Assembly: GCF_013375555.1 (NCBI RefSeq)
Contig: NZ_JABXWB010000005.1
Location: forward strand, 761,501-825,500
DNA: 64,000 nt
Direction: 5' to 3'
DNA from: Sphingobium sp. EM0848
GTDB taxonomy: Bacteria; Pseudomonadota; Alphaproteobacteria; Sphingomonadales; Sphingomonadaceae
Shown here one piece after another: positions 32,668 to 63,053 of this stretch; the first letter of the stretch is position 1; each line of letters starts with the position of its first letter. The position numbers and the translations under genes are program-made. The notes under the pieces were generated by a model. It saw nothing but the letters and a program-made list of their open reading frames with translations. It ran no database searches and was not told the DNA's origin.

Positions 32668-32685
32668 AATTTGTCCGGACAAATT
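32668..32685. promoter_or_regulatory. Operator palindrome, copy A
   Basis: A perfect 18-bp palindrome AATTTGTCCGGACAAATT in the divergent promoter between the hydrolase operon and the 44-residue ORF/aldehyde dehydrogenase operon. It is identical to copy B at 43188 and shares the TTGTCCGGACAA core with copies C and D. The GT-N4-AC half-site spacing fits GntR proteins of the HutC type, and a GntR/UTRA protein is encoded at 48833. Confidence 0.8.
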
Positions 32686-32745
32686 CCACTCGACAAGTCT
32701 TTTTTGCAAACTACTGTACGAATCACGATTTTGCAGGAGTTTGAG

Positions 32746-32880
32746 ATGGTGCTGATCGGTGCGGACATGGTCTGTGACGGGTGGACTGCGCGACAGATTT
32801 TCGCGGAAATGATGGCGAGTCCCGAAGTCCGGTTCATGCCCGGTAAGGACAAAGCGAACAGCCGGGAGGGGCGGCCATGA
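32746..32880 (+). CDS. Small 44-aa ORF leading the aldehyde dehydrogenase operon
   Basis: A 45-codon frame starting MVLIGADMVCDGWTARQIFAEM and ending KDKANSREGRP. It has a very good ribosome site (AGGAG, six bases before the ATG) and its stop overlaps the start of the aldehyde dehydrogenase gene by 4 bp (ATGA), so it is either a real small protein or a leader that couples translation of the dehydrogenase. No membrane segment. I recognise no family; the central FAEMMASPEVRFMPG might be the remnant of a longer protein. Confidence 0.6.
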   Translation: MVLIGADMVCDGWTARQIFAEMMASPEVRFMPGKDKANSREGRP

Positions 32881-34310
32881 GCCTGACCGTTATCGATCCG
32901 CGCACGGGGCAGGTGGATTATAGCATCACCCCGCTCGATGAAGCTCAAATCGCGCAGCAGACCGCCGCATTGCGGCGGGCGCAGGTTGGATGGGCGGAGC
33001 AGCCGGCGGAGCAGCGGGCGACTGCGCTGCGCGCCTTTGCCGAAGCCATGGGACATCATCGCGCGGCGCTGATCGAGGCGCTGACCAACGATACCGGGCG
33101 AGCGGCGATCTCCGCGATAGAAGTCGATGCCATGACCCGGGCGCTGATCCGCTGGGCCGACAGCGCGCCCGCGATCATCAGGGCGGCGCAGGTGCAGGAC
33201 CGGCCGACCGGCATTCCCGCCATCACGACCACGACCCGGCTGGTGCCCTATGCGCTGGTGGGCGTGATCAGCCCGTGGAACTTCCCGCTGACGCTGGCGC
33301 TGATCGACGCGATCCCTGCGCTGGCGGCTGGATCGGCGGTGATCATCAAGCCTTCCGAGGTGACGCCGCGCTTCATCCGTCCCCTGATGGCGGCCATTGC
33401 CGAGGTTCCGGACATCGCGGGCGTCCTGACCCTGATCGAAGGGGACGGCGCGACCGGCGCCGCGCTGGTCGATCATGTCGACTTCATCGCCTTCACCGGA
33501 TCGGTCGCGACCGGGCGCAAGGTGGGCGAGGCGGCGGCGCGGGCCTTCATCCCCGCGAGCCTGGAACTGGGCGGCAAGGACCCGATGCTGATCCTTGCCA
33601 GTGCCGATCCGGAAAAGGCGGCGGACATCGCCCTGCGCGCGTCGGTACTCAACACCGGGCAGGCCTGTCAGTCGATCGAGCGGGTCTATGTCGCCCGCGC
33701 CATAGCCGAGCCGTTTCTGGTGGCGCTGGCGCGCAAGGCGCAGGCGGCGCGGCTCAACTATCCCGATGTCCATGCGGGGGATATCGGACCGTTCATCTTC
33801 GGCAAACAGGCCGTCATCGTGCAGGCGCAGATCGACGATGCTGTGGCGAAGGGCGCGCGGATACTGGCCGGTGGACAGGTCGAGACGCTGGGCGGCGGCC
33901 AATATTTGCGCCCGACGGTTCTGGTCGACGTGACGCCCGGCATGGCGATCATGGAGGAGGAGACCTTCGGCCCGGTCATCCCGGTGTCGCTGTTCGATAC
34001 CGAGGATGAGGCTGTGGCGCATGCCAATAGCGGCATTTTCGGGCTGTCCGCTGCCGTGATCGCCGGAAGCACGCAGGAAGCCGAAGCGGTTGCTGTGCGG
34101 CTCAACGTCGGCGGGGTGTCGATCAACGATGGGTCGCTGACTGGACTGGTCTGGGAGGCCGAGAAATCGAGCTTCGGCAAAAGCGGCCTTGGGCCGTCGC
34201 GCATGGGGGAAAGCGGTTTGCTGCGTTTCTTCCGCAGGCAGGCGCTGATCCGTCAGTCGGGCAACGCGTTGCCGCTTGCCGCCTATTCGGAGGAAGCGCT
34301 GGGCGGCTGA
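32877..34310 (+). CDS. NAD(P)-dependent aldehyde dehydrogenase
   Basis: A 477-residue ALDH-superfamily enzyme oxidising an aldehyde to the acid. Catalytic residues are present: Glu230 in SLELGGKDPML and Cys264 in NTGQACQSIERV, with the cofactor segments ISPWNFPLTL, IIKPSEVTPRF and FTGSVATGRKVGEAA. It is translationally coupled to the 44-residue ORF and is under the same operator as the divergent hydrolase. The natural substrate is probably an aldehyde produced in the catabolic route of this locus; the acid formed could be activated by the ligase or CoA-transferases further along. Confidence 0.94.
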   Translation: MSLTVIDPRTGQVDYSITPLDEAQIAQQTAALRRAQVGWAEQPAEQRATALRAFAEAMGHHRAALIEALTNDTGRAAISAIEVDAMTRALIRWADSAPAIIRAAQVQDRPTGIPAITTTTRLVPYALVGVISPWNFPLTLALIDAIPALAAGSAVIIKPSEVTPRFIRPLMAAIAEVPDIAGVLTLIEGDGATGAALVDHVDFIAFTGSVATGRKVGEAAARAFIPASLELGGKDPMLILASADPEKAADIALRASVLNTGQACQSIERVYVARAIAEPFLVALARKAQAARLNYPDVHAGDIGPFIFGKQAVIVQAQIDDAVAKGARILAGGQVETLGGGQYLRPTVLVDVTPGMAIMEEETFGPVIPVSLFDTEDEAVAHANSGIFGLSAAVIAGSTQEAEAVAVRLNVGGVSINDGSLTGLVWEAEKSSFGKSGLGPSRMGESGLLRFFRRQALIRQSGNALPLAAYSEEALGG

Positions 34311-34372: not shown

Positions 34373-35104
34373 TTAGCGCTCCAGTTCGAGAAGTTCGTAC
34401 CAGGTCTGCATATAGCCGCCGACGCCGCCCTGTACGAAGATGGCATCCGCGTCGGCCGTGACCCACACATCATAATGGGGATGCGGCACGCCGCCCATGC
34501 CGGGGCCTTCATCATCGACGAAGCGGAAATGGTGGCAGTCGAACGTGCCCGCCGCCACGGTGACGGTTTCGTCGCGGACATATTCCAGGCCGATTTCGAC
34601 CTCCGTGATCAGGGGTGGGGTGGCGCCGCGATGATCGGGGGAGGGCATAAAAACCCGGATCTTGCGGCGATGGGGTCCCTTGGTCACATCCATGCAGCGC
34701 GTCGTATAGCCGTCGCCCGCAATCGGATGTGTGCCGAAGCCGTCAATGAGGCCTGCATAGGGCATTTTCTGCGAGATGCGCCCGATGGATGGCCCGTAGC
34801 TTTCGCATTCGATGAGGCCACCCTCATCGCCGGGCGTGTGATGCAGCCAGCCCGATCCCATATAGGCGTCGCCCACGGTCAGATGGACGTGCAGATCCTG
34901 CGGCCGCCCTTGGCTGTCGAGCACATAGACGATGTCGCGCAGTACCGTGGGTGCGGGTTCCTCAATCTCGCAGCGGGCACGGAAAATGGTGCTGCCATCG
35001 CCATGATGGGTGAAGCTGAACCATTCGCGCCCGCGCTCCTGATCCAGCATGTCCGGCTTTTTCGACGTGTAGCCGATGCGGCCGATGACGGTGCGGTGCT
35101 GCAT
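34373..35104 (-). CDS. Unrecognised 243-aa protein of catabolic locus
   Basis: A soluble beta-rich protein without signal peptide. Notable stretches are ERGREWFSFTHHGDGSTIFRA near the N-terminus, LHVHLTVGDAYMGSGWLHH and the C-terminal VAAGTFDCHHFRFVDDEGPG followed by HPHYDVWVTADADAIFV. Many histidines could bind a metal. The AGTFxxxxFRF pattern recalls lipocalin-like or DUF3108-like beta-barrels, but I cannot assign it. Its start overlaps the stop of the 121-residue gene by one base; it is the last gene of the operon that starts with the TonB receptor at 43128. Confidence 0.75.
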   Translation of the reverse strand: MQHRTVIGRIGYTSKKPDMLDQERGREWFSFTHHGDGSTIFRARCEIEEPAPTVLRDIVYVLDSQGRPQDLHVHLTVGDAYMGSGWLHHTPGDEGGLIECESYGPSIGRISQKMPYAGLIDGFGTHPIAGDGYTTRCMDVTKGPHRRKIRVFMPSPDHRGATPPLITEVEIGLEYVRDETVTVAAGTFDCHHFRFVDDEGPGMGGVPHPHYDVWVTADADAIFVQGGVGGYMQTWYELLELER

Positions 35105-40638: not shown

Positions 40639-43128
40639 CTAGAAGTTGTAGCGAGCGCGCGCCACCCACATCATCGGCGGGTCGATATAGCGCGTGTTCG
40701 CCAGCGATGTGTTGGCCGCCGTCTTGTTCAGGCAGTTGGTGCAGGACACCGAAAGCTGCCACTTCTTGTCCGCTCCGTTCAACGCCAGGCTCGCATTGAC
40801 GAACCAGGCCGCTGGGGAGAAGGAACCGTTCAATATCTCTTCGCCACCATAGGGATTGGCCGGATAGGTGCCGTTGGTGCCGGTGATCGACCCCGAATAG
40901 ATGGTGTAGTTGGCGGCGTTGGTTTCCTGGCTGGTGCGATAGCTGCCGTTGATCGACGGGACCAGCGATAGGCCGCTGCTGCCCAGGGGCACGGTATAAT
41001 TGCCGCCCACGGCGATCGTCCATTTGGGCGTGCGCGTCGGATCGGCGATCCTGCCGTCGGGCGTGACGATGCCGACGCCGCAGGCGGCGGTGGTGCCGGT
41101 GCCGCCCGGAATATTGCCCGCAGCGATCAGGGCCTGACACGCCTTTTGCTGCGCATTGACCGACTGGATGCCATATTCGTCATAATCGGGCGCGTTGCGA
41201 TTGATCTTGAACTTGGCGTCCTGATAACCGGCGTTGACGTAGAGGTTCAGCCCTTCGACCGGCACGACGGTGAATTCGGCCTCAATGCCCTTGTTCGTCA
41301 TGTCCGCGAAGTTGCGGGTGATGAAGGTGGCAGACCCATTGGGGTTGACCAGCGCGGAAGGCGTCTGGAGATCGTTCACGTCCATGTAGAAGAAGGTGAG
41401 GTTCGCACGAAGACGGCGATTGAACCATTCGGATTTGATACCGGTTTCATAGCTCCAGACCTTTTCAGGGCCGAAGGGCAGGAAGGACGTTACAGATGTC
41501 GCGCGGGCATTCCAGCCGCCGGACTTGAATCCACGTGTCGCCGAGGCGAAGAGCAGGATATCGTTATTGACCTTGTAATTGATCGCGAAGCGCGGCGTCC
41601 ACTGCTTGGTCTTCAGCTTGTCGGGGATCTTCAGTCCGGAAGGCCCGACAAGATTGAAGGTGTCGAGGCAGGTCGCTTCGATTGTACCGTCATTACAGCT
41701 TGCGCGATTGTCCTGGACCTGCAGAGTCTTGGTTTCGTCGGTGTAGCGGATGCCGCCGGTCAGCTTGATCTGGTCGGTGAGGTTGACGTCGATCTGGGCG
41801 TAGCCGGCCAGCGCCTCCGTCTTGTTGCGCAGGATGCGGTCCGCCAGGATCAGCGTGCTGGTCGGCGAGAGCGTGAAGGTGTCGGCGAAATCGGTGCGGT
41901 TGCGCTCCACGAGATAGAAGGCACCGGCAACATAGTCGATCAGGCCGTCGGCGACGCTGCCGTTGATCTTGGCTTCCTGGCTGAACTGCTGATGCGTGCC
42001 GTCGTTCAGGATCGCGAAGCCGCCCCGCGCATAGCCCATGACGACCGGATTCGGATTGGCCAGCGAAGGACCGCTACGACCGTCATAGAAGTCGAGCGCA
42101 TATTGCTGGTCCTGGCTGACAAAGCCCGTGATCAGGTTCAGCGTCATCTTTTCGGCCAGATCGACTTCGAAGTTCGACGTGATCAGATTGGTTGTCGTAT
42201 AATTCCCCATCAGGAAATATTTCTTCCGGCCGCTGATTGGCAGAGAAGCGAAGGGAGAATTGGACGAACTCTTGCCCACTGGAATACCGGTGGTAGCAAA
42301 ACGTCCATTGCAGTCCGAAGGATTTGCCGGGTTGCACTGGAAATTCAGGATATTCTCGCCATTGGCGACGATATGCGCATAAGAACCGTTCCAGCGGACT
42401 GACGGGCTCAATTCGCCGTGGATGCCGATGCGGGCGCCCCAGCCGTCATCGTCGTTGAGGCGCTGGCCGGTGGTGACGTCCTTCACATAGCCATCGTCAT
42501 TCTGCCAATAGCCGCTGAGCTTGACAGACAGGGTGTCGGCAAGAGGCACGTCGACCGAAGCGCGCGCGATTTTCTTGTTGTAACGACCATAGCCGACTTC
42601 CGCGAAGCCGCCAAATTCCTTGCCCGGCTCCTTCAGGATCACGTTGACGGCGCCGCCGGTGGTGTTGCGGCCGAACAGCGTGCCCTGCGGACCGCGCAGA
42701 ACTTCGACCCGCTCCACATCGAACAGATTGATATTATTGGCATTCTGACGGCTGAGATAGATTTCGTCGACATAGGTGCCAACCGGCGGGTCGAAGGTCG
42801 GAATCGTTTCCGTATTGCCAAGGCCGCGCAGGTAGAAGGCATTGGCCGAACCCACGCCGGTATTGTTCATCGACACCAGATTGGGAACGAAGCGGCCCAG
42901 TTCGAGCGTGTTGGAAACGCCCTGACTGCGGAGCTGATCGGCCGAGAAAGCGGAAACGGCGATCGGCACATTCTGCAGGCTTTCCGAACGGCGCTGGGCC
43001 GTCACGACGATTTCCTGAACACCACCGCTCGACTGGTCTTCGGCCTTGGCCGTCGTCTGGGCGTGCAAGGGCGCGACCGCGATGCCTGCGCTGAGCGCGG
43101 TCGTCGCGACGAGCAGAAGACGCTTCAT
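40639..43128 (-). CDS. TonB-dependent receptor of catabolic locus
   Basis: An 829-residue outer-membrane receptor: signal peptide MKRLLLVATTALSAGIAVAPLHA, TonB box VQEIVVTAQRRSESLQNVPIAVSAFS, plug with YLRGLGNTETIPTFDPPVGTYVDEIYL and VEVLRGPQGTLFGRNTTGGAVNV, and a barrel ending YIDPPMMWVARARYNF. Sphingomonads use this subgroup to import plant, lignin or xenobiotic compounds. The operator at 43188 and a TTGACA -35 at 43229-43224 are just upstream, so this receptor is under the same control as the pathway genes. It heads the leftward operon with the MFS and oxidase genes. Confidence 0.94.
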   Translation of the reverse strand: MKRLLLVATTALSAGIAVAPLHAQTTAKAEDQSSGGVQEIVVTAQRRSESLQNVPIAVSAFSADQLRSQGVSNTLELGRFVPNLVSMNNTGVGSANAFYLRGLGNTETIPTFDPPVGTYVDEIYLSRQNANNINLFDVERVEVLRGPQGTLFGRNTTGGAVNVILKEPGKEFGGFAEVGYGRYNKKIARASVDVPLADTLSVKLSGYWQNDDGYVKDVTTGQRLNDDDGWGARIGIHGELSPSVRWNGSYAHIVANGENILNFQCNPANPSDCNGRFATTGIPVGKSSSNSPFASLPISGRKKYFLMGNYTTTNLITSNFEVDLAEKMTLNLITGFVSQDQQYALDFYDGRSGPSLANPNPVVMGYARGGFAILNDGTHQQFSQEAKINGSVADGLIDYVAGAFYLVERNRTDFADTFTLSPTSTLILADRILRNKTEALAGYAQIDVNLTDQIKLTGGIRYTDETKTLQVQDNRASCNDGTIEATCLDTFNLVGPSGLKIPDKLKTKQWTPRFAINYKVNNDILLFASATRGFKSGGWNARATSVTSFLPFGPEKVWSYETGIKSEWFNRRLRANLTFFYMDVNDLQTPSALVNPNGSATFITRNFADMTNKGIEAEFTVVPVEGLNLYVNAGYQDAKFKINRNAPDYDEYGIQSVNAQQKACQALIAAGNIPGGTGTTAACGVGIVTPDGRIADPTRTPKWTIAVGGNYTVPLGSSGLSLVPSINGSYRTSQETNAANYTIYSGSITGTNGTYPANPYGGEEILNGSFSPAAWFVNASLALNGADKKWQLSVSCTNCLNKTAANTSLANTRYIDPPMMWVARARYNF

Positions 43129-43187: not shown

Positions 43188-43205
43188 AATTTGTCCGGAC
43201 AAATT
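43188..43205. promoter_or_regulatory. Operator palindrome, copy B
   Basis: AATTTGTCCGGACAAATT, identical to copy A, in the 132-bp divergent region between the TonB receptor and the membrane protein at 43261. A minus-strand TTGACA lies at 43229-43224 with the palindrome beginning 18 bases further on, where the -10 element should be, so a bound protein would block the receptor promoter. Confidence 0.8.
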
Positions 43206-43260: not shown

Positions 43261-43941
43261 ATGGCACTCGCTGATCTGGCTTACCCAAGCCTTGTCTATT
43301 TTCACTTGATTCTCTTTGTTTTGTGGCTCGGCGGCGACGTCGGGGTCTTTCTGGCAGGGCAGCATTTCCGCAAGCGTCATCTCTACACGCTGGACCAGCG
43401 AATCGCGTTGCTGAAGCTGCTCGTCCTTATCGACATGACGCCGCGCACGGCATGGGCGCTGATGGTGCCGGTGTCGCTTTCGGTGGTGACGCTGGGCGGT
43501 TACTGGGCGGTTCCGTCCCTGGTGCTGGCGGGGGCCTGGCTGGCGGGGCTGTTCTGGCTCTGGCTCGTCTGGGACGCGCATTTCCATGACATGACCCCGC
43601 GTGCGGCGCGCAACCGGAAGATCGAATTCTGGCTCAAAAATGTGATCACCGTCGGCTATCTGGGCCTTGGCATCGTGTCGCTGGCGACGGGTGCGCCGCT
43701 GGCCGAGAAATGGCTTGCGTCCAAGGCGCTGCTGTTCGGGCTGATTTTCGTCGCCGCGATCATGATCGACGTCGCGTTCAAGCCGGTGGGGCCGCAACTT
43801 GGCCGCCTGCTGAAGGAAGGTTCCAGCGATGAGACGGAGGTGCCGCTGCGCCGCACCATGGACCGGACCCGTGTGTGGGTGTTCATCGTTTATGGACTGC
43901 TGATTGTCACCTCCTACCTTGGGACGGTGAAGCCATTCTGA
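43261..43941 (+). CDS. Unrecognised integral membrane protein (226 aa)
   Basis: A protein with about six hydrophobic segments (VYFHLILFVLWLGGDVGVF, WALMVPVSLSVVTLGGYWAV, LVLAGAWLAGLFWLWLVWDAHF, NVITVGYLGLGIVSLATGAPL, ALLFGLIFVAAIMIDVAF, VWVFIVYGLLIVTSYLG). Several His and Asp residues near membrane ends (FHLIL, WDAHFHDM) might bind heme or a metal, as in CopD- or cytochrome-b-like proteins, but this is not established. It is divergent from the TonB receptor and shares operator B; a second operator lies 41 bp past its stop before the CitE-like gene. Confidence 0.8.
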   Translation: MALADLAYPSLVYFHLILFVLWLGGDVGVFLAGQHFRKRHLYTLDQRIALLKLLVLIDMTPRTAWALMVPVSLSVVTLGGYWAVPSLVLAGAWLAGLFWLWLVWDAHFHDMTPRAARNRKIEFWLKNVITVGYLGLGIVSLATGAPLAEKWLASKALLFGLIFVAAIMIDVAFKPVGPQLGRLLKEGSSDETEVPLRRTMDRTRVWVFIVYGLLIVTSYLGTVKPF

Positions 43942-43970: not shown

Positions 43971-43999
43971 TTGACTTATAAGTTGTCCGGACAAATTTA
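43971..43999 (+). promoter_or_regulatory. Promoter of the CitE-led operon
   Basis: TTGACT (43971-43976), 17 bases, AATTTA (43994-43999). The -10 is weak but the spacing is ideal, and operator copy C lies exactly between the two elements. RNA polymerase binding and repressor binding would exclude each other. Confidence 0.5.
43980..43997. promoter_or_regulatory. Operator palindrome, copy C
   Basis: AAGTTGTCCGGACAAATT, one base different from copies A and B. The TTGTCCGGACAA core is at 43983-43994, between the -35 and -10 elements of the promoter of the CitE-MaoC operon, 31 bp before its start codon. Confidence 0.78.
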
Positions 44000-48832: not shown

Positions 48833-49591
48833 TTACTCGACGTCGATATGCATGGTGTAGGCGAAGCGGTCACCGGGATGGTGGCTCGCGGAAATCTCCA
48901 TGATGCGGCCTTCGGCGTCGAGATAGCAGCGCAGGATGCGAAGGCAGGGGCTGCGACGGGGCACGCCCAGTTCTGCCGCGACCGTGCCGCTGGCGGCTAC
49001 CGCCTGGATATCCTGTGTCACGGTCGCGATCTTGACGCCCGACAGGCGCTCAAGCTGGCGGAAAAGTGTGTCTTCGTTCGTCCGTATCTCTCGTGCGGCA
49101 GCTTCAAGGTCCGGATGGATATAGGCGTCGGTCAGGGCGATCGGTCCGGCCTGTCCCTGCCGGGTGCGCAAGCCGCGAAAATGATACCAGCGCCCGCTTA
49201 CCGGCTCCGCAATATGGGCGGCGAACTTCCTGGGCAGCGATGCCGGCCCCATGGTGGTGAAATGAATCTGGCTGTCGCGAGCATATTGCAGAATTTCGCC
49301 GACGTTGGACAGCGGCTGGTGCAGCGCGCCGCCGCGCGCCGAGGCGGGCTTGATCACGGTGCCCGATCCGCGCTTGCGCTGGATCAGGCCTTCGGTCTGC
49401 AGCGAGCGCAGGGCTTCGCGCACAGTGAAGCGGCTGACCCCGTAGCGTGCGCACAATACGCTTTCGGTGGGAAAATGCGCCGGATCGGGATAGTCGCCAC
49501 GCAAAATTCCCGCGCGCAAATCCTCGGCAAGTTCCTGATAGCGTGGCTTCTTGCCACCATTTCGCGTAATCTTTTGAACTTCCGCCGACAA
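48833..49591 (-). CDS. GntR-family regulator, HutC/UTRA type
   Basis: A 252-residue regulator with the GntR winged-helix (YQELAEDLRAGILRGDYP, FPTESVLCARYGVSRFTVREALRSLQTEGLIQRKRGSGTVI) and a C-terminal UTRA ligand domain (YHFRGLRTRQGQAGPIALTDAYIHPDL, RILRCYLDAEGRIMEISASHHPGDRFAYTMHIDVE). The TTG at 49591 has AGGGGAG seven bases upstream and is preferred over GTG at 49597. It is the only regulator in the 31-64 kb locus and stands between its two rightward operons. I infer that it represses the TTGTCCGGACAA promoters and is relieved by a pathway intermediate. Confidence 0.9.
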   Translation of the reverse strand: MSAEVQKITRNGGKKPRYQELAEDLRAGILRGDYPDPAHFPTESVLCARYGVSRFTVREALRSLQTEGLIQRKRGSGTVIKPASARGGALHQPLSNVGEILQYARDSQIHFTTMGPASLPRKFAAHIAEPVSGRWYHFRGLRTRQGQAGPIALTDAYIHPDLEAAAREIRTNEDTLFRQLERLSGVKIATVTQDIQAVAASGTVAAELGVPRRSPCLRILRCYLDAEGRIMEISASHHPGDRFAYTMHIDVE

Positions 49592-49635
49592 ATTCACACT
49601 CCCCTGCCAATTCGTTACATGTCGGAGTATCTCCG

Positions 49636-50880
49636 ATGACTGCGATAGACCATAGCCTAGTTGAACGCATTGCACAGCATCTCCATCGTCCGATAGAAAA
49701 AATTGTCCGGACAAAGGCGAGGCTGCATCTACTGGATTGGCTGGCTTGTGTTGCAGGAGCAAGACAATCCGAAGTCGCTCGATTGCAGGCGGGGGACAGG
49801 GGAGCTGCTGCCGCCGACAAGGCGGCGTGGCTGGGCAATGTGCTGGAGATGGATGATGTCCACCGCACGGCGATCCTGCATCCCGGCCCGGCCGTCTGGC
49901 CCACGGTACTCGGCATGGGCGGGGATGCGCTGGACGACGCACTCGATGCGGGTGTGCGGGGTTATGAGGCCATGATCGGGATCGGCGCGATGCTGGATGG
50001 GCGGCATTATGCCTATTGGCACAATACGGCGACGGCGGGCAGCTTTGGCGCTGCTGCCGCTGCAGTATTCCGCCTCGACGCAAGCGAGGCGCAGCTTGTA
50101 TCGGCGCTGGGGCTGGCGGGATCGGTCACGGGCGGCCTCTGGCAGATGCGGCATGAGCCGGTCATGGCCAAGCAGTGGCATCTGGCCCATGCGATGATGA
50201 CGGGCACGGCAGCGGCCCGGCACGCGGTTATGGGTATCACCGGGCCGCGCTTCATCTTGGAAGGGCCGCAGGGGTTGTTCGCCGCGACCTGCGACGCGCC
50301 AAAGCCGCCGGTGCTGGGCGAGGGCTGGCGGATCGATCAGGTGAGCTTCAAGCCCTGGGGTGCCTGCCGCCATGCGCATCCCGCCATCGACGCGGCGCTG
50401 GAACTCAAGGCGATGGGGGCGCTGGAGGGGGCAGTGACGGTCGTCACCTATCGCGATGCGCTCATCTTTTGCGACCGGCCCGATCCGAAAAGCGTGATCG
50501 ACGCGAAATTCTCGCTGCAACATGCGGTCGCCATCGTCATGGAACGGGGCGTGCCGCAGCTTGCTGACTTCGAACCCGATGCGATTGCCGCGCTGGCCGA
50601 TGCGCGCAGACAGGTGACGGTGGTGGAGAGCGAGGCGCTGACCCGCGCCTATCCCGCGCATTTCGGGGCCACCCTGTCGAGCGGGAAAGGCAGGATCACG
50701 CTGGCCGACGCGCGCGGGGACCCGGAGCGGCCCTTGTCCGAGGCCGGGGTGGTTGAAAAGGCCCGCGCGCTGATGGCATGGGGAGGCGTCGAGATCGATG
50801 AGGCCAGCGAAATGATCGTGGCCACGCTTGAGGGCGATCGGGTGTCGGACATCATGCGCATATTGGAGGGCTGGCTTTGA
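49636..50880 (+). CDS. MmgE/PrpD-family protein, first copy
   Basis: A 414-residue member of the 2-methylcitrate dehydratase/cis-aconitate decarboxylase superfamily: N-terminal helix KARLHLLDWLACVAGARQ, YEAMIGIGAMLDGRHYAYWHNTATAGSFGAAAAA, KQWHLAHAMMTGTAAARHA and ISFKPWGACRHAHPAID-type VSFKPWGACRHAHPAIDAAL. It could dehydrate, isomerise or decarboxylate a tricarboxylate-like intermediate. A GGAG ribosome site eight bases before the ATG supports the start. Operator copy D lies inside its codons 22-28, an unusual place. It is followed by a second paralogue. Confidence 0.92.
   Translation: MTAIDHSLVERIAQHLHRPIEKIVRTKARLHLLDWLACVAGARQSEVARLQAGDRGAAAADKAAWLGNVLEMDDVHRTAILHPGPAVWPTVLGMGGDALDDALDAGVRGYEAMIGIGAMLDGRHYAYWHNTATAGSFGAAAAAVFRLDASEAQLVSALGLAGSVTGGLWQMRHEPVMAKQWHLAHAMMTGTAAARHAVMGITGPRFILEGPQGLFAATCDAPKPPVLGEGWRIDQVSFKPWGACRHAHPAIDAALELKAMGALEGAVTVVTYRDALIFCDRPDPKSVIDAKFSLQHAVAIVMERGVPQLADFEPDAIAALADARRQVTVVESEALTRAYPAHFGATLSSGKGRITLADARGDPERPLSEAGVVEKARALMAWGGVEIDEASEMIVATLEGDRVSDIMRILEGWL
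49700..49717. promoter_or_regulatory. Operator palindrome, copy D, inside coding start
   Basis: AAATTGTCCGGACAAAGG, with the intact TTGTCCGGACAA core at 49703-49714. It is 68 bp inside the PrpD-like gene and 112 bp upstream of the GntR start, so it can act as autoregulatory site for gntR and as a roadblock or downstream operator for the PrpD-led operon. Confidence 0.65.
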
Positions 50881-54884: not shown

Positions 54885-55190
54885 ATGCGCATCATCGTGC
54901 TGTTCAACCTGAAGCAGGACGCCGATCCCGCCGCCTATGAAAACTGGGCACGGACGGTCGACATTCCAGGCGTCAATGCGCTTTCCTCCGTCAAGGATTT
55001 CCAGGTGCACCGGGTAACCGGCGTGCTGGGCAGCGACGCGCCATCGCCCTATGCCTATTTCGAGGTGATCGACATCACCGACATGGCGGCCTTCGGCGTC
55101 GATGCGTCGAGCGAGGCGGTGCAGAAGGTCGCCGCCCAGTTCCAGCAGTTCGCTGACAATCCGCAGTTCATCCTGACCGAGACGCTGTGA
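54885..55190 (+). CDS. HapK/RedY-like small protein
   Basis: A 101-residue protein of ferredoxin-like dimeric alpha/beta-barrel type. MRIIVLFNLKQDADPAAYENWARTVDIPGVNALSSVKDF and VLGSDAPSPYAYFEVIDITDMAAF are typical of REDY/HapK-like proteins, named from pigment-biosynthesis clusters but of unknown reaction. The ATG at 54885 has AAGGAG six bases upstream. It is 20 bp after the amidase and its stop overlaps the SDR start. Likely acts as a small isomerase, cyclase or monooxygenase-like helper. Confidence 0.75.
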   Translation: MRIIVLFNLKQDADPAAYENWARTVDIPGVNALSSVKDFQVHRVTGVLGSDAPSPYAYFEVIDITDMAAFGVDASSEAVQKVAAQFQQFADNPQFILTETL

Positions 55191-56023
55191 TGCGCCGCTT
55201 CGAAGGGAAAACCATAGTCGTCACCGGCTCGGGCCGTGACAAAGGGCTGGGGCAGGCGATCCTGCAACGCTTCGCGGACGAGGGCGCGAACTGCGTCGTC
55301 TCCGACCTTGGCAAGCCGGCCGAGCATATGGGCGCCAGCGACATCGGCACCACCGACGAGATGGAGGCCGTGGCCGAGGAACTGCGCCAGCGCGGCACGA
55401 AGGTCGCGGTTATCCCGTGCGACGTGCGGTCGGAGGAAAGCTGCGCGGCGCTGGCGGCGAAGACCGTCGAGGCGTTCGGATCGCTCGACATCTGGGTCAA
55501 TAATGCAGGCATCGGCTATATCATGAAGCCGCTGCTGGAAACGACGTCCAGCGAGTGGGAAGCGGTGATCAGCGTGAACCTGTCGGGCGCCTTCTACGGC
55601 ACCAAGGCGGCGGCAAAGGCCATGATCGCGGGCGGCAAGGGTGGCCGGATCATCAACATCGCCAGCCAGGCGGCCAAGTCAGGCTTCCCGCACATGGCGC
55701 CTTATACCAGTTCGAAACATGGCATGGTCGGGTTGACCCGCTCCAACGCCATCGAGCTTGGCCAATATGGCATCACCGTGAATGCGGTGTGCCCCAATCA
55801 TGTCACGACGGGCCTTGGTGCGCGGCAGAATGAGTATTTCTCGAAGCTGCTCGGCTTCGACAGCGTCGAGGCCTATATCGAGAACATGCACCGCAAGAAC
55901 CCGATGGGTCGCCCCGGCAAGGGCAGCGACACCGCGGGCGCCTGCGCATGGCTGGCTTCCGACGACGCGGTTTATGTGACCGGCGAGGCACTGAACGTCT
56001 CGGGCGGTGAGGAGATGCATTGA
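55190..56023 (+). CDS. Short-chain dehydrogenase/reductase
   Basis: A 277-residue classical SDR. The cofactor motif is VVTGSGRDKGLGQAI, with NNAGIG and the active site YTSSKHGMVGLTRSNAIELG (Tyr and Lys). Ser of the triad lies in IINIASQAAKSG. It interconverts a hydroxyl and a keto group on a CoA ester or free substrate with NAD(P). It starts at ATG 55190, one base over the stop of the HapK-like gene (a GTG at 55187 is possible), and overlaps the deacetylase-like gene by one base. Confidence 0.92.
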   Translation: MRRFEGKTIVVTGSGRDKGLGQAILQRFADEGANCVVSDLGKPAEHMGASDIGTTDEMEAVAEELRQRGTKVAVIPCDVRSEESCAALAAKTVEAFGSLDIWVNNAGIGYIMKPLLETTSSEWEAVISVNLSGAFYGTKAAAKAMIAGGKGGRIINIASQAAKSGFPHMAPYTSSKHGMVGLTRSNAIELGQYGITVNAVCPNHVTTGLGARQNEYFSKLLGFDSVEAYIENMHRKNPMGRPGKGSDTAGACAWLASDDAVYVTGEALNVSGGEEMH

Positions 56024-56889
56024 TGATTGAAGAACGTATCGACTGGCCGAATGATGCGAAGCTGGCGCTGTCGGTGGTCGTGAATGTCGAGGAAGGGTCG
56101 GAAATGACCGTGGCGCGTGGCGACCGCGGCATGGAGCCTGTCGATGAACTGGGCATCCACATCAAGTCGGCCATCCGCAACTATGGCAATGAATCCAACT
56201 ATCGCTACGGCATCAAGGCGGGCGCCCCGCGCATCGTGAAGCTGCTGCGCGACTATGACATCAAGGCGAGCTGGACGGTAGCGGCGCTGAGCCTCGAAAA
56301 TCATCCGGAAATCGCCCAGGCCATCGCAGAACTCGGGCATGAGCCGGTCAGCCATGGCTGGCGCTGGGTGCACCAGTTCAAGATGAATGAGGAGCAGGAG
56401 CGCGAATTCATCCGCAAGGCGGTCGCCTCCATCGAGAAGACCGTCGGCGTGCGCCCCTATGGCTGGCTCAGCCGCTATTTCCACACCGACAATACGCGGC
56501 GCCTGCTGATCGAGGAGGGCTTCGCCTATCATATGGACGATTATTCGGGCGACGTGCCCTTCTGGGATCGGGATACCGTGCCCGGCAAGCCGATTGCCAT
56601 CGTCCCCTATCAGCTCGATTCCAACGATATGAAGATGTGGACCGACCCAGCGATGACGCCGACGCAGTGGCTGGAATATGCGAAGAACTGCTTCGACCAG
56701 CTCTATCGCGAAGGGGAAGCGGGCCATCCCAAGATGATGTCGCTGGGCCTGCACCTGCGCATCATCGGCCGTCCGGGGCGCATCTGGGCGCTGGAGGAGT
56801 TCTTCCGCCATGTGACCGCGAAGAGGGATGTGTGGATCACCACCCGCCACGCCATCGCCCAGCATCTGGCAAAGGTCGATCCGGCATGA
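56023..56889 (+). CDS. Polysaccharide-deacetylase-fold protein, PuuE-like
   Basis: A 288-residue NodB-homology protein. It resembles the allantoinase PuuE more than chitin deacetylases: VVVNVEEGSEMTVARGDRGMEP near the N-terminus (Glu where deacetylases have the first Asp), HEPVSHGWRWVHQFKMNEEQEREFIRKA with the metal His residues, and WLSRYFHTDNTRRLLIEEGFAYHMDDYSGDVPFW. PuuE-type enzymes open the amide bond of a ring (allantoin). Here it may hydrolyse a cyclic or linear amide of the locus substrate. It overlaps the SDR and ECH genes. Confidence 0.87.
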   Translation: MIEERIDWPNDAKLALSVVVNVEEGSEMTVARGDRGMEPVDELGIHIKSAIRNYGNESNYRYGIKAGAPRIVKLLRDYDIKASWTVAALSLENHPEIAQAIAELGHEPVSHGWRWVHQFKMNEEQEREFIRKAVASIEKTVGVRPYGWLSRYFHTDNTRRLLIEEGFAYHMDDYSGDVPFWDRDTVPGKPIAIVPYQLDSNDMKMWTDPAMTPTQWLEYAKNCFDQLYREGEAGHPKMMSLGLHLRIIGRPGRIWALEEFFRHVTAKRDVWITTRHAIAQHLAKVDPA

Positions 56890-57650
56890 GCGTTCGGATC
56901 GAGAAACAGGGTGCGATCGCGCATCTACTGATCGACCGGGCGGAAAAGCGCAACGCCTTCACCCAGGCGATGTGGGAAGAATTTCCCATATTGCTGGGGG
57001 AGGCGATGGCGGATGAGACGATCAAGGTCGTGCTCCTCCGTTCGGCGGCTTCAGGCATCTTCTGCGCGGGCGCGGATATTGGGGAATTTGGCGCGGGTGC
57101 GCTGGATCCCGAATGGCGCGCGAAGAACCAGGACGCGATCAGCCGCGCCCAATATGAGCTGGCGCGGGCAGAAAAGCCGGTCATCGCCGTGATCGACGGC
57201 GATTGCGTCGGCGGTGGCTGTGGCCTTGCCATCGCCTGTGATCTGCGCGTTGCGTCGCCCCGGGCGCGTTTCGGCATCACGCCTGCCAAGCTTGGTCTGG
57301 TCTATTCGTTGCACGATACCAAGCTGCTGGTGGATCTGGTCGGGCCTGCACAGGCCAAGCGCATCCTTTTCACCGCCCAACTGCTCGCGGCCGAGGATGC
57401 GCAGCGCATTGGCTTGATCGAGATGCTTGATGAGAACCCGGTTGCTGCGGCATCAGCGCTGGCGGGCACTATCGCCACTGTCTCGTCGCACAGCGTCCGC
57501 AACAGCAAGAAGATCATCCGCAGCATCCTTGACGGCCAGTCGGAGGATGATGCCGGGACGCAGGCGCTGTTCGCTTCGGCCTTTACTGGCGCGGACTTCA
57601 AGGAGGGGGTTTCGGCCTTCCTCGAAAAGCGCAAGGCTGTGTTCCGGTGA
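56886..57650 (+). CDS. Enoyl-CoA hydratase/isomerase-like protein
   Basis: A 254-residue crotonase-fold protein. Oxyanion-hole segments are GIFCAGADIGEF and VIDGDCVGGGCGLAIACDLRVASPRARFGITPAKLGLVYSLHD. The glutamate at the normal PExxLG catalytic position is replaced (TPAKLGL), so it may be an isomerase, hydrolase or decarboxylase rather than a standard hydratase. ATG overlaps the deacetylase-like stop by 4 bp. Substrate is a CoA ester from the route. Confidence 0.9.
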   Translation: MSVRIEKQGAIAHLLIDRAEKRNAFTQAMWEEFPILLGEAMADETIKVVLLRSAASGIFCAGADIGEFGAGALDPEWRAKNQDAISRAQYELARAEKPVIAVIDGDCVGGGCGLAIACDLRVASPRARFGITPAKLGLVYSLHDTKLLVDLVGPAQAKRILFTAQLLAAEDAQRIGLIEMLDENPVAAASALAGTIATVSSHSVRNSKKIIRSILDGQSEDDAGTQALFASAFTGADFKEGVSAFLEKRKAVFR

Positions 57651-58561
57651 GCGGCGCCCTGCAACATGGTCGGATACTGGGCGGGGTCGTTTCGACGCCC
57701 CACCTCGATGCGGCGCTGGCGGACTATCATGGCTGTCTGGGGCTGATGGTGGTTGAGCAGGGCTTGCTGGATGCCGATCTCGCGGCGAGCTGGGGATGCC
57801 CGAAAAGCGCTGGTGCGCGCTTTGCGACGCTTCAGCCTGCAAGCGGCGCGCCCTGCTTCATCCGGTTGGTGGAGGCCGTGCTGCCGCCGGATTTCACGCC
57901 CACGCGGACCTATGGCTGGGCTGCCTATGAGCTGACGGTACAGGATGTGTTCGGTTGGCCCGACCGGCTACAGGGCAGCGGTTTCGACATTGTGGGGCCG
58001 CCCAAGGCTCTGGAAGGCCTGCCCTATTTCGTTCCCATGCAGGTGACGGGGCGCGGGCGCGAGATGATCTATCTCAACGAGGTGGCGGACAATACGCCGA
58101 CCTCCGACCTGCCCAGGGCGCAATCGCTGGTGGATCATATCTTCATCGTGATCCTTGCGACACCGGATCGCGAGGCGAGCCTTGGTTGGTTCGAAAAGGC
58201 GCTGAAGCTGGATATTTCGTCCAGCTATATGCTGGCCTATTCGATGATCAACAACGCCTTCGGGCTGGGCAGCGATTACCGCACGACGATCACCATGGTG
58301 CAGAAGGGGCGGTTGCCCATTGTCGAGGTGGATGATTATCCGCCGCAGGCGACCGGGCGACCGGGCGATCCGGACATGCTGCCGCCCGGCAATGCGATGA
58401 TCTCGCTGGCAGTGGATGATCTGGATGATCTGGATGATCTGGGTGCGGACTTCATCGTGCCGCCGGTCAGACGGGAAGGGGCTTTATATGGCGGGCGGCG
58501 TGCCGCCACGGTGCGCGGTCTGGCCGGTGAACTGATCGAGCTGATCGAAATCGGACGCTGA
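57647..58561 (+). CDS. VOC-family (glyoxalase/dioxygenase-like) protein
   Basis: A 304-residue two-domain vicinal-oxygen-chelate protein. HGRILGGVVSTPHLDAALADYHGCLGLMVVEQG begins the first beta-alpha-beta-beta-beta module; a second starts near SLVDHIFIVILATPDREASLGWFEKALKL. VOC proteins are metal-dependent dioxygenases, isomerases or epimerases. A VOC gene also occurs in the Pseudomonas itaconate cluster. A short tandem repeat (GATGATCTG three times near 58414) encodes DDLDDLDDL before the C-terminal strand. GTG start overlaps the ECH stop. Last gene of the operon before a terminator. Confidence 0.88.
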   Translation: MSGALQHGRILGGVVSTPHLDAALADYHGCLGLMVVEQGLLDADLAASWGCPKSAGARFATLQPASGAPCFIRLVEAVLPPDFTPTRTYGWAAYELTVQDVFGWPDRLQGSGFDIVGPPKALEGLPYFVPMQVTGRGREMIYLNEVADNTPTSDLPRAQSLVDHIFIVILATPDREASLGWFEKALKLDISSSYMLAYSMINNAFGLGSDYRTTITMVQKGRLPIVEVDDYPPQATGRPGDPDMLPPGNAMISLAVDDLDDLDDLGADFIVPPVRREGALYGGRRAATVRGLAGELIELIEIGR

Positions 58562-58617: not shown

Positions 58618-59592
58618 TCAGGGAAGCAGGAGCGTCGAACCTGTCGTCTTGCGCCCTTCCAGATCGATATGGGCCTGGGCGACGTCTTCCAGCCGGTAGC
58701 GCTGGCCGATGGTGATCTTCACCTTGCCTGCGCGCAGCATGTCCCACAGACGGGCCACGCCCGCCGCCCGCTCTGCCGGATCGACATAATAATGGTAGAG
58801 CATGGGCCGCGAATTATAGAGCGAGCCCTTCATCGCCAGCACGCCCAGATTGACCCCGCCCACCGGCGCGTCGGCACTGCCATAGTTCACGATGAGGCCG
58901 CGAATGCCGCAGCTGTCGAGCGAGGATTCCCAGGTCGACATGCCGACGCCGTCGAAAACGACGCGCACGCCCTTGCCGCCGGTCAGTTCGCGGACGCGGC
59001 TGGCGGTGTCCTCGCTCTGGTAGAAGATGATATGGTCGGCCCCGGCGGCGCTGGCTTGCACGGCCTTTTTCTCGGTGCTGACGGTGCCGATCACGGTCGC
59101 GCCGATCGCCTTCAGCCACTGGACCAGGATCAGCCCGACGCCGCCGGCCGCCGCATGGACGAGGACGGGCCAGCCTGCCTCTACCCTGGCGCAGCGTTCG
59201 ACCAGAAATTCGGCGGTGCAGCCCTTCAGCAACGCCGCTGCCGCGCTGTCATCGTCGATATCGTCGGGAATGGGGAACAGCGAGGTAGCGGCAATATTGC
59301 GATGGGTGGCGTAGGCGCCGCGTTCCGGCCCGAAATAGCCGACACGTTGGCCGGGCTGGAAATCGGTGACGTCTTCGCCAGTCGCTTCGACCACGCCGAC
59401 GCCCTCGACGCCCAGTTCGGCCGGCAGTGTCACCGGATAGATGCCCCGCCGATGATAGGTGTCGATGAAATTGAGGCCCAGCACTATATGCCGGACGCGT
59501 ACTTCGCCTGCACTGGGGGCGGGAAGGTCGACATCGTGGAAGGTGATGACTTCCGGCCCGCCATTGGCCTCTATCCTTGCGACGCGCGCCAT
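58618..59592 (-). CDS. Zinc-free NADPH:quinone oxidoreductase-like MDR protein
   Basis: A 324-residue medium-chain reductase. ARIEANGGPEVITFHDVDLPAPSAGEVRVRH begins the GroES-like part; VLVHAAAGGVGLILVQWLKAIGATVIGTVSTEKK is the NADPH-binding part, and KVKITIGQRYRLEDVAQAHIDLEGRKTTGSTLLL is the C-terminus. Members are QorA-type quinone reductases and enoyl reductases. It is 14 bp behind the YCII-like gene, so they form a leftward operon with the DUF1330 gene. Confidence 0.92.
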   Translation of the reverse strand: MARVARIEANGGPEVITFHDVDLPAPSAGEVRVRHIVLGLNFIDTYHRRGIYPVTLPAELGVEGVGVVEATGEDVTDFQPGQRVGYFGPERGAYATHRNIAATSLFPIPDDIDDDSAAAALLKGCTAEFLVERCARVEAGWPVLVHAAAGGVGLILVQWLKAIGATVIGTVSTEKKAVQASAAGADHIIFYQSEDTASRVRELTGGKGVRVVFDGVGMSTWESSLDSCGIRGLIVNYGSADAPVGGVNLGVLAMKGSLYNSRPMLYHYYVDPAERAAGVARLWDMLRAGKVKITIGQRYRLEDVAQAHIDLEGRKTTGSTLLLP

Positions 59593-60306: not shown

Positions 60307-60333
60307 GGATTCTTTCAGTTCATGGTCATGCTT

Positions 60334-62730
60334 TTAGAAGGACTTGCTGACCGTCAGGCCATATTCCGGCTTGCGGGCCGGGGTGATGGCGAAGGCGCGG
60401 GCATAGTCGCCGGTCGGCGTGCGCGCTGCGGCAAAGTCCAGATAGCGTAGGATGCCCACAGGCGATTCATCGCCCAGCACATTCTTGCCATAGACGCTGA
60501 TCCGCAGGCCATGGCTGTCATGCAGGCCGAACTGTACGTTGAGCTGCGTGGAATCGCCGCTCTCCGCATGGTTGAGCACCTGGTCGAAATAGCTGCTGCG
60601 ATAGATGACGTCCGCGCCAGAGAAGACCGTCCAGTTGTCGTCGACGGGATGCTGGAAGCGCAGCCCGACCGTGCCGCTATGCTTGGAAACGAGTGGCGGG
60701 CGGTTGCCGGCGATCGAGGCCGCGTCGCGGCAACCGGGCAGGTCGAGGTTCACAGTCGAGCCGGTCTTGCACGAACGGCCGAGCAGTTCGAGTGCCTTTT
60801 CCGCCTCCACGCCCTTGCGGATTTCGGCGTCGAGGAAGGTGTAGTTGAACTGCAGTTTCAGGATATCGCCGACCAGCGGCAGCTGACCTTCCAGTTCCAC
60901 GCCGCGAATACGGGTGCGGCCGATATTGGCACTGTAGGAATCGACCACGTTGTTGGCGATATAGGTGTTGGTCAGAACCTGATTCTTGTAATCCTGCCAG
61001 AAGGCGGAGATGTTCAGATAATCGAAACCGAACTTCGACGTCTTCATGCCGATTTCATAGTTGGTCAGCTTCTCTTCCTTGAAGACCGGATCTGGCGCAC
61101 TGATCTTGTTGAAACCGCCCGGTGAGTTGCCCTGCGAGAACTGGGCATAGAAGGACAGGTTGCGCTCAGGCTTCCAGTTGATGGTGACGCGCGGCAATGT
61201 GGCCTTGAACGTCGCCTTGCGGGTCGCTGCCGTGCCGACGACCTGATTGGGGTTGGGCAGCACGACCGTTGCCAGATAGGCGGCGCTGAACACGTCCCCC
61301 ACGCGATAGGTCGGGGTTTCGTTGCGCACCTTGTCGATCTGGTGGCGCAGTTCCGCGCCGACCGTCACCGTCGGGGTGACATCAAAGTCGACGCCCCCGA
61401 AGAAGGCAAGGTTGCGCACGCGCTTCGTATCGTTGAGCAGTTCGGGGCCAACCTCGTTCAGCTCCAGATATTCCGGCATGTCGCTTTGCTTGTCGATGCT
61501 GTGGAACGCGCCCACGCGCCAGCGGAAACGATCGGTTGCCGGCGATGACAGGCGGAATTCATAGGTCTGCGTCTTGCGGCGCGTTCCTGTTGTGGTTTCG
61601 AAGCTCGATTTGCTGCAATCCTGATTGGGCAGCGCATAGAAGGAGCGGCCGCAGAGCGACTGGGGCAGGAAGTAGAAGCCGCGCGCATCATAGGTCTGAT
61701 CGAGGCCGGTCACTTCCGTCAGGTCGCTGTAGCCGGCCTGGAACGATGCTTCATAGCCCGAACCGGCGATGTCCCAGGAAATGTCGCCGATGAAGCGGTC
61801 GGCATTGCGATACAGGCCGGGACGAAGCAGGCGGTTGGTGTTCGCGGCGAAATGCGTCATCGTCGGTACGACGCCGCAATAATAGGGGCGTGTGGACAGG
61901 AAACAGTTGTTCGCGCTTGCCGGCTGGAGGCCGATTGCGAAATGGCCGTCATCGTCGGTCTGGTGCAGCCAGCGCACAGAGGCCTTGATATCGTCCGTCG
62001 GGTCGAAGAACAAGCCGGCGGTATACTGCCTGCTGCTTTGGTCGCCCAGTCGTTCGCCGGGAACGGCTTCGTTGCGCCACTGGCCATCGGTGTCGAACAG
62101 CTTGAAGCCGGCTTGGAAGCCGATGCCGTCCATGATCGGGCCGGACAGCGAGGCGCTGAGTTCGCGGCGGTCGAAATTGCCGAGCGTGCCGACGACGCGG
62201 CCTTCGAAATCCTTGCCCGGCCGCTTGAGAACTACGTTGATCGCGCCGCTGAGCGTTCCTCGACCGAAGACGGCCGATTGCGGGCCCTTGATGACTTCGA
62301 CCCGTTCGATATTTGCGAGATCAAGCGATGAGAAGTCACCGAAATAGGGCGCGCCATCCAGAAAGATACCGACCTTGCCGTCGCTGAACAGGATGTTGGA
62401 GGCGCCGCGCATGACCGGACGATCGCCGCCACGGCCGAAGGATTGCTGAATCTGGAAACCGGGCGTGAAGGCGGCGAGATCCGTGATATTCTGTGCCATT
62501 TTGTCCTGGATCAGGGCGCTGTTGAATGCATTGACCGCGATCGGTACTTCAAGCAGCGTTTCCGCCCGCTTGCGCGCGGTGACGACGATGGCGTCCTGCG
62601 AATCCGCGCTGGCGCTGGCCCCGGGATCATTGGCCGCATCTTGTGCGGAGGCCGGCATCGCGGCCGAAGCGAGTATGGCGGTAGAGATGATGAGCGCGAT
62701 CCTGCGCGCCGAAAATGCTGATTTTTTCAT
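60334..62730 (-). CDS. TonB-dependent receptor, second of the locus
   Basis: A 798-residue receptor with signal peptide (ALIISTAILASAAMPASA), TonB box DAIVVTARKRAETLLEVPIAVNAFN, plug motifs VIKGPQSAVFGRGTLSGAINVVLKRPG, and a barrel ending RKPEYGLTVSKSF. It belongs to the same general class as the receptor at 40639 but is not a close copy. An imperfect operator and a half-site lie in the 323-bp upstream region. Together the two receptors imply import of a large or poorly soluble substrate. Confidence 0.93.
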   Translation of the reverse strand: MKKSAFSARRIALIISTAILASAAMPASAQDAANDPGASASADSQDAIVVTARKRAETLLEVPIAVNAFNSALIQDKMAQNITDLAAFTPGFQIQQSFGRGGDRPVMRGASNILFSDGKVGIFLDGAPYFGDFSSLDLANIERVEVIKGPQSAVFGRGTLSGAINVVLKRPGKDFEGRVVGTLGNFDRRELSASLSGPIMDGIGFQAGFKLFDTDGQWRNEAVPGERLGDQSSRQYTAGLFFDPTDDIKASVRWLHQTDDDGHFAIGLQPASANNCFLSTRPYYCGVVPTMTHFAANTNRLLRPGLYRNADRFIGDISWDIAGSGYEASFQAGYSDLTEVTGLDQTYDARGFYFLPQSLCGRSFYALPNQDCSKSSFETTTGTRRKTQTYEFRLSSPATDRFRWRVGAFHSIDKQSDMPEYLELNEVGPELLNDTKRVRNLAFFGGVDFDVTPTVTVGAELRHQIDKVRNETPTYRVGDVFSAAYLATVVLPNPNQVVGTAATRKATFKATLPRVTINWKPERNLSFYAQFSQGNSPGGFNKISAPDPVFKEEKLTNYEIGMKTSKFGFDYLNISAFWQDYKNQVLTNTYIANNVVDSYSANIGRTRIRGVELEGQLPLVGDILKLQFNYTFLDAEIRKGVEAEKALELLGRSCKTGSTVNLDLPGCRDAASIAGNRPPLVSKHSGTVGLRFQHPVDDNWTVFSGADVIYRSSYFDQVLNHAESGDSTQLNVQFGLHDSHGLRISVYGKNVLGDESPVGILRYLDFAAARTPTGDYARAFAITPARKPEYGLTVSKSF

Positions 62731-63053
62731 TTCCGAAAATACTCCCCCTCAGTAGAGCGGCGCTTTGCCGACATCTGTAATGCAGCATTGCCGTCACGCG
62801 TAAAGTTGTCCAGACAAATTTTAAAAATTTGTCCGCATGTTTTGCGGCGTCCATACGGATTTTTACGGCGAGTTGCGGAAAAGCGCTATGATTCCATATT
62901 TTGATTTGGCGCCAATAATGGCTGCGACGCTGCCCTTTTAGCCGGGCGCGCCCGAAGGAGCCTGAGAGGATTTGCGGAGGTCGCTATTCTCTGATTTGGC
63001 TACAAACGCTGTCGAACCATAGGCGCCACGTCCTATCCGATTCGGGTGTGCCC
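62731..63053. other. 323-bp gap with operator sites
   Basis: Non-coding region between the receptor start and the DUF1838 gene end. It contains operator E and a half-site at 62826-62834, and is AT-rich between 62800 and 62920. No credible gene; short reading frames in the gap lack ribosome sites. Confidence 0.7.
62803..62820. promoter_or_regulatory. Operator palindrome, copy E (imperfect) plus half-site
   Basis: AAGTTGTCCAGACAAATT differs from copy C by one base (A for G at the axis). A separate half-site AATTTGTCC lies at 62826-62834. It is 73 bp upstream of the TonB receptor start, so this receptor probably joins the same regulon with lower affinity or through two sites. Confidence 0.65.

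Follow-up and report, generated by a model that had tools for sequence, protein, structure and literature searches.

A 12-bp palindromic word, TTGTCCGGACAA, recurs in a block of uptake and catabolic genes within the 64,000-nucleotide stretch of Sphingobium sp. EM0848 analysed here (contig NZ_JABXWB010000005.1, positions 761,501 to 825,500; hereafter the window). Very probably, it is the operator of the HutC-type GntR regulator encoded in that block, predicted to act as a repressor of the uptake and catabolic genes. The evidence computed in this study consists of the specificity of the word within the genome, its co-occurrence with the regulator, its recurrence before the same genes, a fixed spacing to a TTGAC element and the HutC-type domains of the protein. 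A sequence-only reading of the window had already proposed that one regulator controls two TonB receptors, a major facilitator superfamily (MFS) carrier and the pathway enzymes, and this proposal is supported by the genome scan, the co-occurrence and the conserved placement, binding itself being a prediction.

In its extended form, the word is a perfect 18-bp palindrome (AATTTGTCCGGACAAATT), which occurs exactly at 32668..32685 (operator 1), between an alpha/beta hydrolase gene (minus strand) and an aldehyde dehydrogenase gene (plus strand), and at 43188..43205 (operator 2), between the gene of TonB receptor 1 (minus strand) and a membrane-protein gene (plus strand). The exact 12-mer is found four times in the window (32671, 43191, 43983 and 49703). 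Its third copy belongs to an 18-mer with one mismatch (operator 3, 43980..43997), which precedes the citE operon and has a TTGAC starting 12 bp ahead of the core, while the fourth is the intact core (49703-49714) of an 18-mer with three mismatches (operator 4, 49700..49717), lying within the 5' end of mmgE1 and upstream of gntR, where it is proposed to serve the autoregulation of gntR. Operator 5 (62803..62820) has two mismatches over the 18-mer, a one-mismatch core (TTGTCCAGACAA, 62806-62817) and, beside it, a half-site (AATTTGTCC at 62826, with TTGTCC starting at 62829, 23 bp on). The sequence-only reading had listed these five copies, all of which we found in place, and had held the exact 12-mer to be far too rare for chance; 100 dinucleotide shuffles of the window indeed yielded none, against the four observed. 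Its statement that the first 31 kb are devoid of copies holds for up to one mismatch. When two mismatches are allowed, two copies appear there (16048 and 23471) and one at 63978, a tolerance at which the shuffles average 1.5 copies.

In a scan of the complete genome (5,638,963 bases in 5 contigs), a check which that reading had suggested, there was no scatter of the word that would have refuted its proposal: 4/4 exact copies and 2/3 one-mismatch copies (62806 and G000:C5:825638, as opposed to C1:209342) fall within the block. The copy at G000:C5:825638 (operator 6), which reads TTGTCCAGACAA, stands 138 bp past the window end, before a DUF1838 gene, so that the block drawn earlier from 31 to 64 kb does hold the copies, but the regulon continues beyond it. 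A chance origin of the exact copies is ruled out by the shuffles together with the confinement of all four genomic copies to the block. For the one-mismatch copies, a reversed control pattern matches the same genome at 10 places with at most one mismatch, hence a lone copy of this kind proves little. Such copies are not numerically rare, and it is their location, not their number, that carries weight.

Across relatives, the word and the regulator are found together. Among 198 genomes, at least three exact motifs were counted in 9/9 of those having GntR (at least 53% identity) and in 3/189 others, namely G121 and G131, with homologues of 36% and 33%, and G173, in which the control pattern also counts 3. 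A comparison with related sphingomonads, again proposed in the sequence-only reading, was extended to 397 genomes of the family, where GntR-positive means at least 43% identity (n = 50, with 16 further genomes showing weaker hits) and where six candidates were scored per genome in the protein search, a limit at which some orthologues could escape. One exact motif or more is present in 50/50 GntR-positive genomes versus 28/347 without, and at least two in 48/50 versus 2/347 (G371 and G547). The 50 positive genomes span 27 genus codes; within codes such as g2 and g22, some genomes have the regulator together with motifs and others have neither.

Co-occurrence alone cannot separate the regulator from the rest of the cluster, and another regulator, either the LysR-type one encoded past the window end or an unlinked one, might bind the palindrome, with gntR as a mere passenger. 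A lysR gene, recognised by eye in the extended block, is present in G024, G045, G044 and G073, and G371 has motifs without GntR. Yet the stretches fetched from G097, G105 and G113, genomes with both motifs and gntR, yielded no lysR. LysR sites usually follow T-N11-A. In locus L084, gntR and motif occur together without other block genes, bar weak TonB homologues, and the GT-N4-AC geometry is the HutC pattern in the sections of PMC4494728 at hand. LysR was thus regarded as an unlikely binder of the palindrome, and we consider control by another regulator in general very unlikely. GntR, for its part, is the regulator whose gene was found in the block in each compared relative.

The placement of the sites is conserved as well. 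Scanning named genomes gave 21 loci, 16 of them at 61% identity or more (L079-L094); these include Sphingobium estronivorans AXB, S. chungbukense DJ77, S. jiangsuense, Sphingomonas cavernae (two copies), Sphingomonas sp. LaA6.9, several metagenome-assembled genomes and, at 61% GntR identity, Steroidobacter agaridevorans and Peristeroidobacter agariperforans. Gene order around gntR is kept in these 16 loci except L084 (the second S. cavernae copy) and the short L089. In the fetched loci, one site precedes citE (maoC in G105) and another separates tonB1 from the membrane-protein gene; the two Steroidobacter-type loci have both sites in this latter interval. An exact core precedes hyd, the alpha/beta hydrolase gene, at the equivalent place in 7 further genomes compared, and the tonB2 promoters of G024, G045 and G044 carry TTGTCCAGACAA, as does the window. 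Locus L084 is devoid of the enzyme genes, and its sites are near two TonB receptors and before gntR itself. The most telling case of placement is G121, from another family of the same order (GntR 35-36%), whose fragmented assembly has sites on seven contigs. Six sites, each on its own contig, are at orthologues of the block gene set (isochorismatase-puuE2-puuE3-aldh; a DUF3108-like gene; hmgl and caiB3; tonB1 and the membrane protein; leuC; gntR), while the seventh is without a block orthologue; separate contigs do not prove that these genes are unlinked. The claim of the sequence-only reading that all copies are at promoters is to be taken with the restrictions that the 49703 copy is intragenic and that the promoters are predicted. 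As a separate observation, promoters of the second TonB type (window 62803-62837; L073, L074, L076, L084, L028) often have paired sites at a distance of 19-31 bp, either two operators or one operator with a half-site, and TTGTCCAGACAA recurs among them; such paired sites may provide cooperative or graded control.

The gntR product (about 254 aa) has an N-terminal GntR winged-helix domain (PF00392, 7.1e-18) and a C-terminal UTRA domain (PF07702, 1.7e-17), both over cut-off. A GntR gene at 48833 had been announced from the sequence, and a HutC-type gene is indeed there, but the open reading frame 48833-50083 is over-long, the gene spanning about 48833..49597 (minus strand). The best NCBIfam match is HutC (TIGR02018), with 92.2 bits against a cut-off of 220, and an identity as the histidine-utilization repressor was rejected on that score. 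GT-N4-AC, a feature of most HutC-subfamily operators described in the accessible parts of PMC4494728, is present in the core TTGTCCGGACAA and recurs in the 66 sites collected with at most one mismatch, which, along with the GntR and UTRA domains, agrees with the earlier remark that this geometry suits GntR/HutC repressors; the pairing of protein and operator is predicted. The closest solved relative of the protein is NagR/YvoA (1.1e-15), whose Arg38 and Arg48 correspond to Ser46 and Arg56. In NagR, according to the passages available from PMC4333415, Arg38 reads G-5 and Arg48 reads G-4, while AraR retains only the second arginine (Arg41), which contacts the guanine equivalent to G-4 (PMC4218819; PMC4333415, both in part). 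The operator half-site studied here has G at -4 and T at -5. The protein was not retained as a NagR/YvoA orthologue with both base-reading arginines (Ser46 replaces Arg38, Arg56 is kept); aligned motif-bearing orthologues likewise have Ser, Ala, Thr or Asn at the first position and keep the second arginine. In G371, the partial hit L118 has the first arginine and lacks the second.

Compared with NagR (YvoA) and its dre-sites in Bacillus subtilis, the predicted system shares a palindromic operator, a half-site guanine at -4 that the second arginine would read, and target genes for uptake and catabolism (PMC4333415, as far as its accessible text goes). It differs in having Ser46 and T-5 instead of Arg38 and G-5, and in its two operators that are perfect over 18 bp, the natural dre-sites being imperfect palindromes; the ligands of NagR are amino-sugar phosphates (same excerpts of PMC4333415). 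AraR of B. subtilis keeps only the second arginine, as the window protein does (PMC4218819, in part), but belongs to a GntR subfamily of its own, whose effector domain is of a different type (PMC4494728, in part) from the UTRA domain found here.

The promoters themselves were compared over 15 citE-type, 15 tonB1 and 8 hyd loci, the logo being built from the 66 sites of 16 groups of loci. Same-genome copies (L079, L082, L083, L085), near copies (L081, L091, L093) and the short contig L089 were left out; L084 entered only the logo and the comparison of the gntR site, and L081 only the latter. TTGAC starts 12 to 14 bp before the core in 14/15 citE-type promoters, 27 bp ahead in 12/15 tonB1 promoters (26 bp in 1/15), and TTG[AT]C is 14 bp ahead in 8/8 hyd promoters. 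In 11 citE promoters aligned without gaps, the twelve core columns are identical 11/11, against averages of 6.2 and 5.4 for the flanking columns. Given the usual distance from -35 to -10, the core is expected in the spacer separating the two elements at citE and hyd, and directly behind -10 at tonB1, a position typical of repressors, in which a bound dimer would block RNA polymerase. The location of the sites relative to TTGAC-type elements thus suggests repression. At operator 1, the hyd ATG starts 8 bp from the 18-mer (7 bp between), so that the hyd transcript may be nearly leaderless.

GntR might also bind the sites as an activator, or as activator and repressor at once. Dual roles are known in the GntR family, and the two sites 19-31 bp apart at some tonB2-type promoters could serve beyond simple occlusion; however, at citE, hyd and tonB1 the core is downstream of TTGAC, within the presumed -35/-10 spacer or directly past -10, and we regard activation as quite unlikely. 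We infer binding, repression, release by a ligand and the identity of that ligand along the following lines: a dimer of the HutC-type GntR would bind TTGTCCGGACAA, extended to AATTTGTCCGGACAAATT, over the core promoter and repress the uptake genes (two TonB receptors, MFS carrier) and the catabolic operons, until a compound of the pathway binds the UTRA domain and GntR is released. The site before gntR would probably amount to autoregulation in this lineage.

That last site deserves separate treatment. The 49703 copy starts 67 bp after the A of the mmgE1 ATG (49636) and 105 or 111 bp ahead of gntR, depending on which start codon is taken (GTG 49597 or TTG 49591), and probably lies in the gntR promoter. 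At face value, a copy sitting inside a gene could be a by-product of the mmgE1 coding sequence (Ile-Val-Arg-Thr-Lys) rather than an operator, and the 10 loci L085-L094 have no copy with at most one mismatch at the equivalent place. Against this, the exact copy is found there in G024, G045 and G044, and TTGTCCGTACAA in L080, L081 and L084; in L084, the similarity to mmgE1 stops just past the site, yet the site remains before gntR, and G105 and G121 have one-mismatch sites before gntR. A coding by-product is therefore possible for this copy alone, albeit doubtful.

Several observations weigh against assigning the palindrome to GntR. The association statistics (Fisher's P = 6e-57 for at least two motifs) ignore relatedness, and the 28/347 genomes that carry a motif without GntR include G371, with four exact motifs, no orthologue (all 15 candidates scored) and sites that are not beside block genes. 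Conversely, G302 and G394 have GntR but one motif each, that of G302 being far from gntR. Among the distant homologues, the gntR of G121 has an in-frame TAG in the assembly and may be broken or misread there, and in G131 (GntR 33%) 2/4 sites are near weak TonB homologues and 2/4 at contig ends. The first arginine is also missing from most of the distant homologues in genomes that have no motif clusters, so that its loss fits the operator without discriminating. A simple promoter scan reported no promoter in 43050-44100. Finally, the 36 exact copies scattered over the genome of G243 would suit a repeat, or a word of the restriction or uptake type, without regulatory role. For Sphingobium sp. 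EM0848 such an element is ruled out by the mere four exact copies, all in the block and with different flanks, and the positions before the same genes are conserved among relatives, which leaves a word of this kind hardly credible as the general explanation. In G243 itself (genus code g103, same family), TTGTCCGGACAA occurs 36 times exactly and 109 times with at most one mismatch over two contigs, whereas the reversed pattern gives 0 and the same-genus genome G310 has no motif. Within the stretches fetched (L122-L136, L140-L155; mostly chosen around sites), the 20 exact sites are in open frames of 576-2691 nt, and at two places aligned with G310 the word looks substituted, not cleanly inserted. 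In this genome, it resembles a highly iterated palindrome.

The genes of the block were assigned to families by Pfam and NCBIfam profile searches. Behind operator 1, the first minus-strand gene is hyd (31107..32660, 517 aa; Abhydrolase_1 1.2e-14), while the plus strand has a 27-residue remnant of an isochorismatase-type hydrolase (32743..32823), whole in L059, and the aldehyde dehydrogenase (32877..34310; Aldedh 2.3e-104). The minus-strand operon behind operator 2 begins with tonB1 (40639..43128) and is followed by genes of the same strand for the MFS carrier (39283-40572), an FAD-linked oxidase (37722-39323), a carbon-nitrogen hydrolase (36662-37717), a methyltransferase (35466-36665), an unclassified open reading frame overlapping its neighbour (35104-35661) and a weakly DUF3108-like protein (34373-35104, under the Pfam cut-off). 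On the plus strand follow a 226-aa membrane protein without Pfam match (43261..43941), then a citE-like lyase (44001-44858), a MaoC hydratase (44848-45360), an acyl-CoA dehydrogenase (45373-46542) and two family III CoA-transferases (46518-47732, 47725-48825). Beyond gntR, the plus strand encodes two MmgE/PrpD proteins (mmgE1, 49636-50880; 50877-52184), a PaaK-like ligase (52181-53551) and an amidase (53548-54864), then an SDR (short-chain dehydrogenase/reductase) dehydrogenase, a PuuE-like hydrolase (56020-56889), an enoyl-CoA hydratase and a VOC (vicinal oxygen chelate) protein (55187..58561), which may depend on an operator. On the minus strand are a quinone oxidoreductase-like gene (58618..59592), for which no own operator was found, tonB2 (60334..62730) and the DUF1838 gene (63054..63989) with operator 6 before it. 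Past the window end, the minus strand continues with a second FAD-binding oxidase gene, together with genes for a membrane protein, a weakly DUF3108-like and a nitrilase-family protein; this set (L008:1902-6517) resembles the one at 34373-43941, as if a module had been duplicated. After it comes the presumably LysR-type gene, so named by eye. At the other border (25713-30472), reading by eye gives a TonB receptor, a FecR-like gene and a possible sigma-factor gene, where relatives have a leuCD-hmgl-caiB3 tail.

By family, the members of the predicted regulon are two TonB receptors and an MFS carrier for uptake, amide hydrolases, and a CoA module for branched dicarboxylates. C-N bond hydrolases of the block are the PuuE-like protein, the carbon-nitrogen hydrolase and the amidase, to which relatives add an isochorismatase-type and two more PuuE-like enzymes. 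The PuuE-like protein scores 248.9 bits with TIGR03212 (cut-off 424.6) and, among solved structures, matches HpPgdA (1.6e-16) and PuuE (2.6e-64), PuuE being a relative of cyclic imide hydrolases (PMC9304392, in the part available). To the branched-dicarboxylate set belong MaoC, nearest to beta-methylmalyl-CoA dehydratase, CitE, nearest to RipC but under its cut-off, the CoA-transferases, and MmgE1, similar to IRG1/cis-aconitate decarboxylase and IDS-epimerase; relatives add LeuC-like, LeuD-like and HMG-CoA-lyase-like proteins to this set. Searches against solved structures give family resemblances only, and substrate specificity is not readable from families. Probably, the pathway degrades an imported compound with an amide or imide group to a branched dicarboxylate, which is then cleaved in the form of its CoA ester. 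A cyclic imide as the substrate is a guess that agrees with the enzyme families. More specifically, though unlikely as a whole, the block could be a dedicated pathway for an alkyl-substituted cyclic imide, such as maleimides from tetrapyrroles: opening of the ring and release of the half-amide would fall to PuuE-like imidases and amidases, then a LeuCD-like hydratase (in relatives), CaiB, acyl-CoA dehydrogenase, MaoC and CitE would split the branched dicarboxylate, and one HutC-type repressor, spread between sphingomonads and Steroidobacter-type bacteria, would switch everything, non-adjacent genes included.

In comparison with L059, the plus-strand operon of operator 1 has lost most of the isochorismatase-type gene and the two PuuE-like genes; gone as well is the leuC-leuD-hmgl-caiB3 tail of the hyd operon, which relatives have. 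At about 30493-30735, a short remnant that partly overlaps the preceding gene and contains a TGA looks like the start of the leuC frame, which is whole in L059; a LeuC of 65% identity is encoded elsewhere in the genome. The operators and gntR are intact despite these losses in two operons, and regulation may thus outlive the complete pathway in this strain.

Regulons of the HutC subfamily defined by comparative genomics have, as here, GT-N4-AC, often extra half-sites nearby, and catabolic operons, but their consensus is NyGTMTAKACNy, whereas the window operator has CCGG in the middle (PMC4494728, accessible sections); neither 'Sphingo' nor 'TTGT' occurs in the text of that paper. The bile-salt clusters of Sphingobium sp. 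Chol11 and Caenibius tardaugens resemble the window in being catabolic clusters of sphingomonads that encode TonB receptors, an amidase and CoA enzymes; the regulators named in the available parts are TetR, AraC and Lrp/AsnC, and the texts hold no occurrence of 'GntR' (PMC8399759, PMC12882949). The function of these described clusters was rejected for the block because their named regulators differ. A full-text search for TTGTCCGGACAA returned nothing but Drosophila stem-cell work, a search for DUF1838 Streptomyces work only, and term searches for the gene cluster no description of the regulon, most subscription papers lying outside these searches. Within the literature covered, the sequence-only reading was right to call the regulon undescribed: the predicted operator and regulon appear to be new, and the kind of regulator is known.

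For the rules of recognition in the GntR family, the window offers a useful natural case, namely a GntR/HutC protein without one base-reading arginine, together with a predicted operator without the matching guanine. For the family of Sphingobium, in which 50/397 surveyed genomes have GntR, the result is a regulator, a predicted operator and a gene list for a conserved, unnamed catabolic system. Moreover, the operator allows genes outside the block to be added to the regulon, as the separate contigs of G121 suggest.

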